This document shows, in pieces, positions 2,992 through 51,283 of a DNA stretch of 53,092 nucleotides; positions within the stretch are counted from its first letter, which is position 1; each line of letters opens with the position of its first letter. A program made the position numbers and the translations under genes. Where the stretch lies: positions 1 through 53,092 of the forward strand of contig JACRML010000005.1 of assembly GCA_016214995.1 (NCBI GenBank), written 5' to 3'. The notes beneath the pieces were generated by a model. The model worked only from the letters and a program-made list of their open reading frames with translations. It ran no database searches and was not told the origin of the DNA. This DNA is from Deltaproteobacteria bacterium. GTDB taxonomy: Bacteria > Desulfobacterota > GWC2-55-46 > UBA9637.

Positions 2992-3072
2992 CTTGTAGTT
3001 GCCGATTCATCGGCGTTTTTATGCGTAAGCCCTCTTTTCAACTACGCCCATAAATGGGCATACTACAAAACT

Positions 3073-3158
3073 TGGTGCCGAAGGGGGGATTCGAACCCCC
3101 ACAGGCTTTCACCCACTAGAACCTGAATCTAGCGCGTCTGCCATTCCGCCACTTCGGC
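3073..3158 (-). tRNA. tRNA-Leu (CAG)
   Basis: Read on the minus strand from 3158, the 7-bp acceptor stem GCCGAAG/CTTCGGC closes perfectly. The discriminator is A and the CCA end is encoded. The anticodon loop TTCAGGT sits on a CTAGA/TCTAG stem, giving anticodon CAG. A long class II variable arm and a GTTCGAATC T-loop confirm a leucine tRNA. It is the only RNA gene in this part; its 5' flank is the three-way-junction repeat. Confidence 0.97.
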
Positions 3159-3166
3159 AAGTTTGG

Positions 3167-3260
3167 ATTGACCCTTGACAAAATAGCAGGTTTAGTTTTA
3201 ACTAAACCTGTTTCCTAATTTTATCTTAAAGATAAAATTATTTATTTTGTCAAGGGTTGA
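3167..3260. repeat. three-way-junction palindromic element, copy 1
   Basis: The outer arms ACCCTTGACAAAATA (3171-3185) and its exact reverse complement (3243-3257) form a 15-bp stem. Inside are two perfect hairpins side by side: 3187-3210 (11-bp arms, 2-base loop) and 3216-3240 (11-bp arms, 3-base loop). A second copy with the same outer ends but different inner hairpins lies at 51046-51137 inside siroheme synthase. It sits directly 5' of tRNA-Leu on that gene's strand. No open reading frame or transposase is present. Confidence 0.85.
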
Positions 3261-3328: not shown

Positions 3329-3997
3329 ATGAAATTTTTTATTGATACTGCAAATATTCAAGAGATTAAAAAGGCGAATGAATGGGGGCTTGTGGACGGT
3401 GTAACCACAAACCCGTCTCTTGTGTCCAAAGAAGGAAGGAATTTTAAAGACCTTATAAAAGAGATTTGCTCCATAGTGGATGGCCCGATAAGTGCAGAGG
3501 CCGTGAGCCTTGATGCAGAGGGCATGATTAAGGAGGCCAGGGAGCTTTCAAAGATTCACAAAAATATTGTAGTGAAAATACCAATGACCCTTGAAGGCCT
3601 CAAGGCTGTCAAGGTTGTCGCAAAAGAAGGCATAAAGACCAATGTAACGCTTGTATTCTCGCCCACGCAGGCGCTCATGGCTGCAAAGGCAGGGGCAACC
3701 TATGCAAGCCCGTTTGTTGGCAGATTAGATGATATTTCGCAGAACGGCATGGAACTGATTGACCAGATTATGACCATTTATGAAAATTACGATTTCGCAA
3801 CAGAGGTTATTGTCGCCAGCATACGGCATCCGCTGCATGTGGTTGATGCCGCGCTCACAGGCGCGCATGTGGCCACAATACCGTTCAAGGTCATAGAGCA
3901 GTTATCCAAACATCCGCTTACGGATATTGGCATTGACAGGTTTATGAAGGATTGGGAAAAGGTGCCGAAAAAGCAGGGACATGGGATCAGGGATTAG
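3329..3997 (+). CDS. tal: transaldolase / fructose-6-phosphate aldolase family protein
   Basis: A 222-residue single-domain TIM barrel of the short transaldolase (TalC/FSA-like) family. It starts MKFFIDTAN and carries the Schiff-base lysine in KIPMT. Members transfer a dihydroxyacetone unit between sugar phosphates in the non-oxidative pentose phosphate pathway, or cleave fructose 6-phosphate; sequence alone does not separate the two. TNVTLVFS and the SPFVGRLDD segment are typical. The ribosome site is a run of G ending 5 bases before ATG 3329. The last few residues read into a quasi-repetitive sequence (from 3972), so the C-terminal tail is probably not conserved. Cytoplasmic; no obvious operon partner. 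Confidence 0.93.
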
Positions 3998-15494: not shown

Positions 15495-16232
15495 ATGCGT
15501 AACATCAAACTCCTCATTGAATATCAAGGCACCAATTACGCAGGCTGGCAGATTCAACAAAACCTCCCTACAATTCAGGGTACAATTCAGGAAAAGGTAA
15601 AGATTATCACCGGTGAGGATATTAAGCTCACTGCGTCAAGCAGGACAGATGCGGGTGTTCATGCGCTTGGCCAAGTGGCAAATTTCTGCACAGAAAGCCA
15701 TATTCCGCCTCATTCCATGCAGATGGGAATCAATGCGCTTCTGCCGGATGATATTGTCATAAAAGATGCTGCGGAGGTTTCTCCTGATTTTGATTCAAGA
15801 AGGAGTGCGAAGGCAAAAACATACAGATACCTAATCCTCAACAGGTCATACCCATCTGCTATTTACAGAAATTTTTCATGGCATGTGTTTCAGAAATTGA
15901 ATATAGATGCAATGCGGACAGCAGCTACCTATCTTATCGGCAAAAAAGATTTTACATCCTTCAGGGCCTCTGAGTGTGATGCCATGCATTTTGTCAGAGA
16001 GATTTTATCGTTTTCAATAGAAAAGAAGGATGATGGTTTTTTGGAACTTGAGGTCAAAGGGACGGCATTTTTAAGGCACATGGTGAGGATAATGGTTGGA
16101 ACTTTGACAGCTATTGGCAAAGGAAAGATTAAGGTGAAAGAATTTCAAACGATAATTGATGCCAAAGACAGGAGATTGGCTGGCATGACTGCGCCGCCGC
16201 AGGGGTTGTTTTTAAAGGAGGTGGAATATTGA
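15495..16232 (+). CDS. truA: tRNA pseudouridine(38-40) synthase TruA
   Basis: 245 residues, the usual length. It isomerises uridines 38-40 in the anticodon arm of many tRNAs. The catalytic aspartate lies in ASSRTDAGVHALGQ, and the family's EYQGTNYAGWQ start and KAKTYRYLI and FLRHMVRIMVGTL blocks are all present. Start ATG 15495 follows directly on a palindromic repeat that fills the gap after asd; no clear Shine-Dalgarno is seen, so translation may depend on coupling or on the repeat structure. It converges on the minus-strand ATPase gene. Confidence 0.96.
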   Translation: MRNIKLLIEYQGTNYAGWQIQQNLPTIQGTIQEKVKIITGEDIKLTASSRTDAGVHALGQVANFCTESHIPPHSMQMGINALLPDDIVIKDAAEVSPDFDSRRSAKAKTYRYLILNRSYPSAIYRNFSWHVFQKLNIDAMRTAATYLIGKKDFTSFRASECDAMHFVREILSFSIEKKDDGFLELEVKGTAFLRHMVRIMVGTLTAIGKGKIKVKEFQTIIDAKDRRLAGMTAPPQGLFLKEVEY

Positions 16233-16235
16233 CGA

Positions 16236-16286
16236 TCTGTTGCCCAAATCTGCGTTTTCGCTACGAAAGCGGATTTGGGCAACAGA
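16236..16286. terminator. long hairpin between convergent truA and ATPase genes
   Basis: The left arm TCTGTTGCCCAAATC (16236-16250) pairs with GATTTGGGCAACAGA (16272-16286), and further pairing (TTTTCG/CGAAAG) lies nearer the loop. It begins a few bases after the truA stop. No U-tract follows, so it may be a repeat, an RNA-end stabiliser or a weak terminator. Confidence 0.5.
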
Positions 16287-16319
16287 CCGTTGATAGTTCA
16301 CACGGGAAAGCATCCCTTT

Positions 16320-26143: not shown

Positions 26144-26268
26144 GGAAGGGGATAGGGCCCGGTGGCCCTGCCGGTCTTCAAAACTGTGCTATCCCCCACC
26201 CTACCCTCCTCCTGAGGGGGAGGGTAGGGTGGGGGATGGGTGGGTTCGACTCCCTCCTCCTTCCGCCA
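26144..26268 (+). tRNA. selC: tRNA-Sec (TCA) with extended variable arm
   Basis: The 8-bp acceptor stem GGAAGGGG/CTCCTTCC (one wobble), a 6-bp D stem AGGGCC/GGCCCT closing a 4-base loop, anticodon TCA in CTTCAAA, discriminator G and encoded CCA are all diagnostic of bacterial selenocysteine tRNA. The variable arm is exceptional: 26191-26209 and 26219-26237 are exact 19-base inverted repeats that can extend to about 22 bp. The whole tRNA is 125 nt against the usual ~95-100. The anticodon stem has a terminal C.T mismatch and the T stem one T.T mismatch. Implies a selenocysteine system (selA, selB, selD) elsewhere in the genome. Confidence 0.93.
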
Positions 26269-35836: not shown

Positions 35837-36087
35837 ATCCAAAAATAGACATTGTTTTTTGGGGAAACCTGCAAGTTGATTGCCAGACAACACACCCCTA
35901 AATCCCCTATCGAGAGGGGACTAAAGGGGTGTGTTATTTACGACGAATCGCATGTTCACCGATGCGGTGAGGAACAAAAATTGGCCGATAACGAAGTATG
36001 GCAGTCAAATCGGCTGGCTCCACTTGCTGCGAAGCAATTGCAAGTGGAAGATGTAAAATAGCGAGGTTTTTAATCGCTATTTTACGG
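35837..36087 (-). repeat. composite multi-hairpin element, copy Y
   Basis: Inverted relative of the element at 43564-43817. In order on the minus strand: hairpin GTAAAATAGCG../..CGCTATTTTAC (36053-36085), hairpin CACTTGCAATTGC../GCAAGTG, the conserved GAGCCAGCCGATTTG and GTTATCGGCCAATTTTTG, CTCACCGCATCGGTG, a variable palindrome (about 35888-35932, ACACCCCTTTAGTCCCCT type), and the CCCCAAA..TTTTTGG hairpin (35837-35867, copy C of that motif). Confidence 0.8.
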
Positions 36088-43563: not shown

Positions 43564-43817
43564 CCGTAAAATAGCGATTAAAAACTTCGCTATTTTACAT
43601 CTTCCACTTGCAATCGCTTCGCAGCAAGTGAAGCCAGCCGATTTGCCCGACCCAAGCTTAGCTTGGGTGCCCCGACTTTGTTATCGGCCAATTTTTTGCT
43701 CCTCACCGTATAGGTGTCATACGGCTCGTAGCAAAAATGTCCTCTGCCTCGTCTGGCTGCCCCCGATAGAATCAATCGGGGGCAGTTTCCCCAAAAATCA
43801 ATGTCTATTTTTGGGTT
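43564..43817 (+). repeat. composite multi-hairpin element, copy X
   Basis: From left to right: hairpin GTAAAATAGCG/CGCTATTTTAC (43566-43598), hairpin CACTTGCAATCGC/GCAAGTG (43605-43630), conserved AGCCAGCCGATTTG, a CCCAAGC/GCTTGGG hairpin, conserved GTTATCGGCCAATTTTTTG, ACCGTAT/ATACGG, a CTGCCCCCGAT/ATCGGGGGCAG hairpin, and the CCCCAAAAATCAATGTCTAT hairpin (copy E, 43786-43817). The same order and fixed blocks occur inverted at 35837-36087, but the palindromes between fixed blocks differ. No gene is seen in 43548-43999. Confidence 0.8.
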
Positions 43818-50428: not shown

Positions 50429-50551
50429 ATATTTATAACCCTTTGCAATAATAACCCAAAATATGAAATCCTTTCCACTGTAAAAATTCTAACTTTTGAC
50501 AAAGTTTAATTAGCCTTGCAAACAGATGCCGGTTCGGGTATAGATATTCCC

Positions 50552-51283
50552 GTGAGATATTATCCCATCTTTCTTGATATAAAGAGAAAACCCTGTGTTG
50601 TGATAGGCGGGGGAAATGTTGCAGAGAGGAAGGTTTTATCACTTCTTGATGCCGGAGCTAAGGTTTTAGTCATCAGCCCAAAACTTACCTCTGCATTAAA
50701 AAGGCTTGCGGGTAAAAAAACAATTGGATACCGCAATAAATCTTATGAGCAAGGAGATTTAAAAGGTTTTTTTCTGGCTTATAGCGCCACCAATGACCCG
50801 GCGGCAAATGAATCGGTATTTCATGAGGCGAAAAAGCGGGGCATACTCTTAAATGTTGTGGATGTGCCGGAGCTATGCAATTTCATAGTGCCTTCGGTTG
50901 TAGACAGGGGGGACCTTTTAATAGCAATATCTACCTCTGGCAGAAGCCCTGCCATGGCCAAGAAGATAAGACAGCAATTGGAAAAGGAATTCGGCTGGGA
51001 ATATGCTGCATTCCTTGAGATTATGGGCAAGGTAAGAGATAAGATATTGACCCTTGACAAATCATCAGATGCTTTGTCAGGGACAAAGCAGAGCAGGTGT
51101 TTTGATGAAACAAAACACACAATTTGTCAAGGGTTGACCAAGAGCAATAAATTTGATAAAAATAAGAAGATATTTGAAAGCATTGTAAACTCACCCATGC
51201 TGGAATGGATAAGGCATGGGAAAAAGAAAGAGATAGATAAGTTTATTAAAGAGGCATTGGAGAAAGCAGGTTCCGGGCTATAG
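50552..51283 (+). CDS. siroheme synthase N-domain (precorrin-2 dehydrogenase) with repeat insertion
   Basis: 243 residues from GTG 50552 (VRYYPIFLD, the usual family start); a TTG at 50516 would add 12 residues. It oxidises precorrin-2 to sirohydrochlorin with NAD+, and in the CysG/Met8 style may also insert iron. It has the dinucleotide loop VVIGGGNVAERKVLSLL, the YSATNDPAANESV segment, VPELCNFIVPS and the SGRSPAMAKKIRQQLE helix. Between KVRDKI and the C-terminal NKKIFESIVNSP helix, where homologues have only a few residues, the gene carries about 30 extra codons that coincide exactly with a palindromic element (51046-51137). The frame is kept. ccsB and hemA follow in a tetrapyrrole cluster. 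Confidence 0.9.
   Translation: MRYYPIFLDIKRKPCVVIGGGNVAERKVLSLLDAGAKVLVISPKLTSALKRLAGKKTIGYRNKSYEQGDLKGFFLAYSATNDPAANESVFHEAKKRGILLNVVDVPELCNFIVPSVVDRGDLLIAISTSGRSPAMAKKIRQQLEKEFGWEYAAFLEIMGKVRDKILTLDKSSDALSGTKQSRCFDETKHTICQGLTKSNKFDKNKKIFESIVNSPMLEWIRHGKKKEIDKFIKEALEKAGSGL
51046..51137. repeat. three-way-junction palindromic element, copy 2, inside a gene
   Basis: The ends ATTGACCCTTGACAAA and TTTGTCAAGGGTTGA are identical to those of copy 1 (3167-3260). The outer stem is 13 bp (51050-51062 with 51122-51134). Inside are two hairpins: TGCTTTGTC/GACAAAGCA (51070-51090) and GTGTTTTG/CAAAACAC (51097-51118), different in sequence from those of copy 1 but in the same arrangement. It encodes LTLDKSSDALSG...CQGL in siroheme synthase. 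Confidence 0.88.

Follow-up and report, generated by a model that had tools for sequence, protein, structure and literature searches.

Background

Palindromic elements that encode segments of proteins have been described mainly in the Rickettsiales. The Rickettsia palindromic elements (RPEs) are the established case of palindromes that have become in-frame parts of conserved genes; their target duplication is still unsettled (PMC2229807, PMC10969869) and is listed as '?' among tabulated elements (PMC2229807). In a 2024 review they stand out because they insert in frame unusually often, and similar protein evolution elsewhere is regarded as 'conceivable' (PMC10969869). The family analyzed here comes from a Deltaproteobacteria bacterium (GTDB lineage Bacteria; Desulfobacterota; GWC2-55-46; UBA9637), and the stretch of DNA that we call the window consists of 53,092 nucleotides (assembly GCA_016214995.1, contig JACRML010000005.1, positions 1 to 53,092 of the forward strand). 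Like the RPEs and their Wolbachia counterparts, it comprises small palindromes located between genes and in frame within conserved genes, where they would be translated as an added peptide in a preferred reading frame. Compared by description, it differs from the RPEs in its unrelated host lineage, in its unit size (22-87 bp, against about 105-150 bp), in folding as a three-way junction or a simple hairpin, and in showing clear 4-bp duplications with empty sites; given these lineages, sequence kinship with the Rickettsia RPE families is unlikely.

Other described systems share further traits with this family. Bacterial MITEs (Correia/NEMIS, RUP, ERIC, YPAL) are likewise short, gene-less, multi-copy sequences with terminal inverted repeats and target duplications, and are thought to be moved in trans. 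Most of those tabulated have TA at their termini and span about 100-200 bp (PMC2229807), whereas the units described here go down to 22 bp and no parental IS was found among the families searched. REPINs (PMC3116915) also combine conserved ends with a variable paired interior and a clover-like fold, and RAYT genes reside in the same genomes, but the present element has target duplications and lacks both the GTAG/CGTC tag and the inverted REP doublet. The hairpin elements of mitochondria, such as yeast GC clusters and the double-hairpin elements of Allomyces, are again small hairpin-forming mobile units of conserved shape, with short target repeats and with nesting and shuffling of hairpins (PMC4478555). 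In contrast to them, the family studied here is bacterial and shows a 4-bp YNNR duplication, a conserved outer stem and in-frame genic copies. Insertion sequences of the IS5 group duplicate a 4-bp YTAR target. Their duplication thus resembles the one reported here in its length and its pyrimidine-to-purine symmetry, but the target core in our case is TTGA and not TA.

The initial annotation of this locus knew no name for the element. The general kind does have one (MITE and, in genes, protein-coding palindromic element of the Rickettsia type), and in its behaviour the family resembles a MITE and, where it sits in genes, an RPE. We consider it likely that a family of non-autonomous miniature mobile elements explains the copies, duplications and empty sites reported below. 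The family provides an independent case of in-gene palindromes, in uncultured groundwater bacteria, and contributes points that are unsettled for the RPEs, namely target duplications that are well defined, empty sites in the orthologues of several genes, and inserts of different size (83, 29, 23 and 0 bp) at one site in congeners. How minute elements move and how proteins tolerate inserts hence become directly testable questions.

Results

Two copies in the window

Two copies with identical ends had been proposed at 3167-3260 and 51046-51137, and both are present there. The lengths originally assigned to them (94 and 92 bp) must be reduced, however: the element proper, CCCTTGACAAA...TTTGTCAAGGG, spans 85 bp in copy 1 and 83 bp in copy 2, and the TTGA common to the outer edges of both is a 4-bp target duplication that lies outside the element (Table 1). 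The proposed layout of an outer stem enclosing two adjacent hairpins was borne out by folding of both copies on both strands (z of -10.5 and -10.3 for copy 1, and of -5.7 and -7.4 for copy 2), with 0 of 200 shuffles equally stable in either case. In an Rfam search of the window the element matched no known structured RNA family, tRNAs being the only matches. The neighbours of copy 1 are a tRNA-Leu (3073-3158, minus strand) and a transaldolase-type gene (3329-3997), and its site is also occupied in a congener (G003, L041). The host gene of copy 2 is an open frame of 255 codons.

Table 1. Positions of the element copies and associated features in the window.
Feature	Position	Strand	Basis or remark
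Left 4-bp target duplication TTGA, copy 1	3168..3171	.	Exact direct repeat of 3257-3260
Copy 1, subfamily A element, 85 bp, intergenic	3172..3256	.	Sequence, fold, covariance model
Inner hairpin 1, copy 1 (CAGGTTTAGT..ACTAAACCTG)	3187..3210	.	Fold
Inner hairpin 2, copy 1 (TAATTTTATCT..AGATAAAATTA)	3216..3240	.	Fold
Right 4-bp target duplication TTGA, copy 1	3257..3260	.	Sequence
82-bp dispersed repeat, unoccupied version of site (..CAAGTGGAAGATG..)	36006..36087	.	Comparison with G003 L048, L143
Siroheme-synthase / precorrin-2-dehydrogenase-like gene with copy 2 in frame; NAD_binding_7 + Sirohm_synth_M	50516..51283	+	
Left 4-bp target duplication TTGA, copy 2; TTGA once in relatives	51047..51050	.	
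Copy 2, subfamily B element, 83 bp	51051..51133	+	+ is the strand of translation
Inner hairpin 1, copy 2 (TGCTTTGTC..GACAAAGCA)	51070..51090	.	Fold
Inner hairpin 2, copy 2 (GTGTTTTG..CAAAACAC)	51097..51118	.	Fold
Right 4-bp target duplication TTGA, copy 2	51134..51137	.	

Copy number and distribution

The search for further copies with a covariance model that the initial annotation had proposed was carried out, and it yielded many of them in the own genome (G000; 1.98 Mb in 99 contigs) and in relatives of the same family. The model was built with 34 pairs and its matches were counted on both strands, so that the 27 matches in the own genome correspond to about 14 copies and the 88 in congener G003 to about 45, these copy counts being those of model and pattern searches. 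Elsewhere in the family the model matched in G004 (2), G005 (6), G006 (19) and G007 (13), and a search of seven genomes related at order or class level gave no match. The own genome has 7 exact-arm pairs and the congener 35, against 0 for a reversed control pattern; among 196 genomes the exact pair occurred in four, all of them belonging to the GTDB family of the window, and the control pattern again had no match. The G003 loci match JACRNJ01, a groundwater Deltaproteobacteria MAG, and the virus contigs searched contained no match to the element. The bearers of the element are thus few, all of them uncultured bacteria from groundwater that belong to one GTDB family.

A composite repeat with the element was also observed on a contig (L040, 1810-1890) of an Ignavibacteriae MAG that was sampled at the same site; this assignment is probably a binning error. 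Matches with the same arms in Ignavibacteria, Desulfuromonadales, Geobacteraceae and RUG10640 were rejected as other palindromes, without 4-bp duplications and mostly with G-rich arms of the CCCTTGACAAAGGGGG type. At L054, L074, L076, L078, L080 (Ignavibacteria), L045 and L077 there are palindromes whose arms are of the CCCTTGACAAAGGGGG type and which lack a 4-bp duplication; they apparently constitute separate repeat families.

Target duplications and empty sites

Exact 4-bp flanking repeats are found around 95 copies, which represent 35 unrelated flank clusters. All 35 conform to YNNR, a pattern expected by chance in a quarter of sites; the count covers exact repeats, besides which there are copies whose repeats are eroded or shifted, and the 35 sites are perhaps not all independent, given that some copies ride in larger composite repeats. 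TTGA/TCAA accounts for 19 of the clusters, and the 16 remaining sites (CTTG, TAAA, CATA, CTGA, CTAA, TTTA, TCCA, TGAA, TCTG, CAAA or complements) are YNNR without exception. The right 4-mer equals the left one whatever its sequence, and in none of the 35 clusters does the repeat reach 5 bp. A symmetric target consensus of this kind would usually mark a two-fold symmetric DNA transposase complex.

Comparison of insertion sites among relatives, likewise proposed at the outset, revealed single-copy targets exactly at the element edge in four genes. The siroheme-synthase gene has no insert in G001, G002, G005, G006 and G009, with a single TTGA at the position of the element edge, and its empty sites extend over four family-level genomes as well as order-level ones. 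Three further genes have orthologues that are empty exactly at the element edge: ispE, with an A copy in G003, the endonuclease V gene, with a B copy in G006, and a NagZ/GH3 gene, with a B copy in G003. A dispersed 82-bp repeat adds a further unoccupied site: the window reads CAAGTGGAAGATG where G003 (L048, L143) reads CAAGTGGA, a 28-bp arm-only element with a TGGA duplication, and TGGAAGATG. In the window, 36006-36087 and 43564-43645 form an 82-bp inverted repeat pair, 96% alike and with two hairpins.

Some copies have the loop of another hairpin as their site, and that hairpin can itself be a copy of the element. Four of 33 reconstructed empty sites fall in the loop of a stem scoring at least 8, against an expectation of 0.49; two of these targets are terminator-like hairpins and two are B-type hairpins with an A element in the loop, and all four are non-TTGA.

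Subfamilies, shape and size variants

The defining feature of the unit is its pair of short inverted ends, CCCTTGACA...TGTCAAGGG, which are terminal inverted repeats as found in MITEs. The inner hairpins had been taken to be unrelated in sequence, but they form subfamilies: A, with GGTTTAGTC and GATTTTATC hairpins, includes copy 1, and B, with CTTTGTC and GTTTTG hairpins, includes copy 2, each with several relatives and each occurring in either orientation relative to flanking TTGA. A 68-bp form C sits within a larger composite repeat in a congener. Despite their sequence divergence the inner hairpins mostly remain paired, and the covariation score (0.169) exceeds those of shuffled (0.089) and slid (0.05-0.07) controls, with pairing in 87% of cells across the structure as a whole; since many of the aligned copies were picked for exact arms, the invariance of the outer arms is partly a matter of construction, which leaves the inner stems unaffected. 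RNAalifold by itself recovers only the outer stem because the hairpin loops misalign, and its place was taken by a manually specified structure.

A pattern search for short forms retrieved palindromes made up of the arms alone (22, 24 and 28 bp) and simple hairpins of 29-30 bp; at the upper end of the size range are three-way junctions of 68-87 bp. Most of the 22-30-bp forms are flanked by 4-bp duplications, and because these hairpin-less copies carry target duplications the three-way junction cannot be required for movement. The common denominator of the family is its arms, the three-way junction being frequent but optional. The earlier notion of a structure-selected element with free inner sequence therefore holds in part: inner pairing is kept and covaries above controls, but the hairpins belong to subfamilies and copies devoid of them duplicate their targets too. 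Inner sequences are self-complementary in both window copies; the family includes copies lacking one or both hairpins.

The siroheme site carries 83 bp in G000 (subfamily B), 29 bp in G003, 23 bp in G004 (CCCCCGA..TCGGGGG) and no insert in G001 and G002; each of the three inserts lies between TTGA and TTGA and each is in frame. The 29-bp insert of G003 is one of a subfamily of short hairpins, and close relatives of it occur at other places. Another site, with TAAA as its target, holds 78 bp in G003 and 22 bp in G007, and at L048, L143 and L196 tandem copies are parted by exactly one 4-mer. Such variants could arise by reinsertion beside an existing copy followed by loss of one of the two, together with slippage at hairpin bases. 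A common origin of the three arms from a single motif received weak support and was set aside (summed p of 0.003, for consensus stems chosen post hoc, of which only one was significant alone).

Copies inside genes

Including the duplication, the long in-gene inserts measure 87 bp in the siroheme gene, 84 bp in NagZ, 81 bp in endonuclease V, with one mismatch in the right repeat, and 90 bp in IspE (85 + 4 plus one extra A). None of the four contains a stop, and all are read in one common frame that yields TLDK......ICQG or FVNG; these are in-frame palindromes in conserved genes that are absent from orthologues, as in the RPEs. Copy 2 and its duplication add 29 codons, reading TLDKSSDALSGTKQSRCFDETKHTICQG. 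Three short copies, supported by family or homologue comparison only, also lie in frame: they read ALDRKNICQG in an IS5-like transposase gene, TLDRKNICQG near the start of an RNase H-like frame, and PLTDVSPVKG in a periplasmic binding protein gene, where the element is read in its other frame and has no clean duplication. The TLDK/LDR...CQG-type frame is thus used in six of the seven genes. The copy in the IS5-like transposase gene (L048 5728-6867, G003:C21; 29 bp, about residues 9-18) places one mobile element inside the gene of another, near its start codon.

In the four genes with long copies, codons downstream of the insert differ from those of relatives mainly at third positions, a divergence that is partly older than the insertion and for which siroheme counts are small. 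Judging from sequence, these genes appear to be still translated past the insert, and the cell appears to translate in-gene copies as extra protein segments. In a solved endonuclease V structure the sequences on the two sides of the insert match positions between which a short segment is left unaligned, and hence the insert position is as expected of a loop. Insert lengths in multiples of three are explained by the survival of non-disrupting inserts only, and survivorship alone is no sign of benefit. Surviving in-gene inserts would be those that by chance are multiples of three without a stop, which the host would translate as loop insertions. The element is most likely selfish DNA.

Discussion

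The proposal that this is a mobile element is strongly supported by its multiple copies, its restriction to one family, its 4-bp duplications and its empty sites; selection on structure, which the initial annotation also invoked, is only part of the picture. Movement by a transposase acting in trans agrees with the observation that no copy found carries a gene (at 22-87 bp and in many copies, the element has no coding capacity of its own, as in MITEs), but the search, which covered the IS1380, DDE_Tnp_1 and Y1_Tnp families, turned up no helper. IS1380-type transposases, with CC ends and 4-bp duplications, are absent from the bearers searched; DDE_Tnp_1 is represented by only three genes in four bearers, with ends unlike those of the element; and the IS5-like transposase gene in G003, itself hit by a short copy, has no matching ends around it. 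In the mechanism that we favour, a symmetric-target, DDE-like transposase, an enzyme class suggested by the duplications, would act in trans and cut the target with a 4-nt stagger; it would join the element ends to the target, gap repair would yield the 4-bp duplication, and hairpins could later be lost through replication slippage.

For a classical two-ended transposition complex, 22-30 bp is a very short unit, and the substrate may take an unusual form. Recognition and insertion might act on a folded single strand, shaped as a hairpin or clover, and not on a two-ended double-stranded transposon. We deem this unlikely, but if true it would explain the 22-30-bp movers, the self-paired interiors and the hairpin-loop targets, other copies among them, and the chemistry of transposition would then be an undescribed one, albeit one still giving 4-bp YNNR duplications. 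Covarying stems and hairpin-loop targets would also suit spread through RNA, with a folded transcript reverse-transcribed at a staggered nick, as proposed for yeast mitochondrial GC clusters, which have short target repeats as well (PMC4478555); the full-length symmetric ends, both orientations and symmetric YNNR preference fit a DNA enzyme dimer more simply, and we hold this route to be improbable.

It is quite improbable that the family consists of REPIN-like elements moved by RAYT (Y1 tyrosine) transposases, with the three-way junction as the 'clover' of a REP doublet. The bearers do have many RAYT/Y1_Tnp genes (12 in the own genome, 8 in G003 and 10 in G006), and REPINs likewise combine a clover fold with conserved ends and a spacer that varies but is paired (PMC3116915). 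Nonetheless, the aligned element ends carry no GTAG/CGTC tag, the two hairpins of each copy differ in sequence and so form no inverted doublet, and symmetric 4-bp duplications with empty sites are unexpected of Y1 single-strand transposition. Moreover, just one of the 12 RAYT loci scanned (L083) has copies nearby in a scan allowing one arm mismatch, these being part of composite repeats, and G001 has five RAYT matches without any copy of the element. Some IS200/IS605 members, such as ISDra2, use TTGA-type targets. An origin as a single-strand element of that kind, with the left TTGA as target tetranucleotide and the right TTGA as the element's own 3' cleavage site, would accommodate both the commonest flank and the hairpins near the ends. 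It is largely refuted, and we regard it as highly improbable: the right flank changes identically with the left, so that the right 4-mer is duplicated target and is not carried by the element, and hairpin order flips relative to TTGA, orientation to the target thus not being fixed. Least probable of all is a non-mobile regulatory or terminator motif under selection at many loci, even if the copies are stable, covarying and mostly intergenic stem-loops, for the motif occurs within coding sequence, is found in no order-level relative searched and shows target duplications, and the single-copy empty sites in orthologous genes refute it as the sole explanation.

Other structured sequences in the window

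Next to the tRNA-Leu and copy 1 lies a second palindromic repeat (2993-3070, TGTAGTTGCC...GGGCATACTACA, z of -4.0) with ends GTAG/CTAC. GTAG-tagged two-hairpin units resembling it are components of composite repeats in G003, and such units are better candidates for RAYT-moved REPINs. A dispersed 30-nt repeat, TTTCCCCAAAAATCAATGTCTATTTTTGGGG, occurs at 16317, 30649, 35839 (inverted), 39387 and 43786, and adjoins short element copies in G003 (L143, L180). The region 16221-16301 forms a very stable long hairpin (z of -9.3) that overlaps the 3' part of a gene stopping at 16232 and is either a terminator or another palindromic element. Finally, a selenocysteine tRNA is located at 26144-26264 (Rfam tRNA-Sec, 56.8 bits); selenoproteins may hence be encoded in this genome, and its TGA stops should be read with care.
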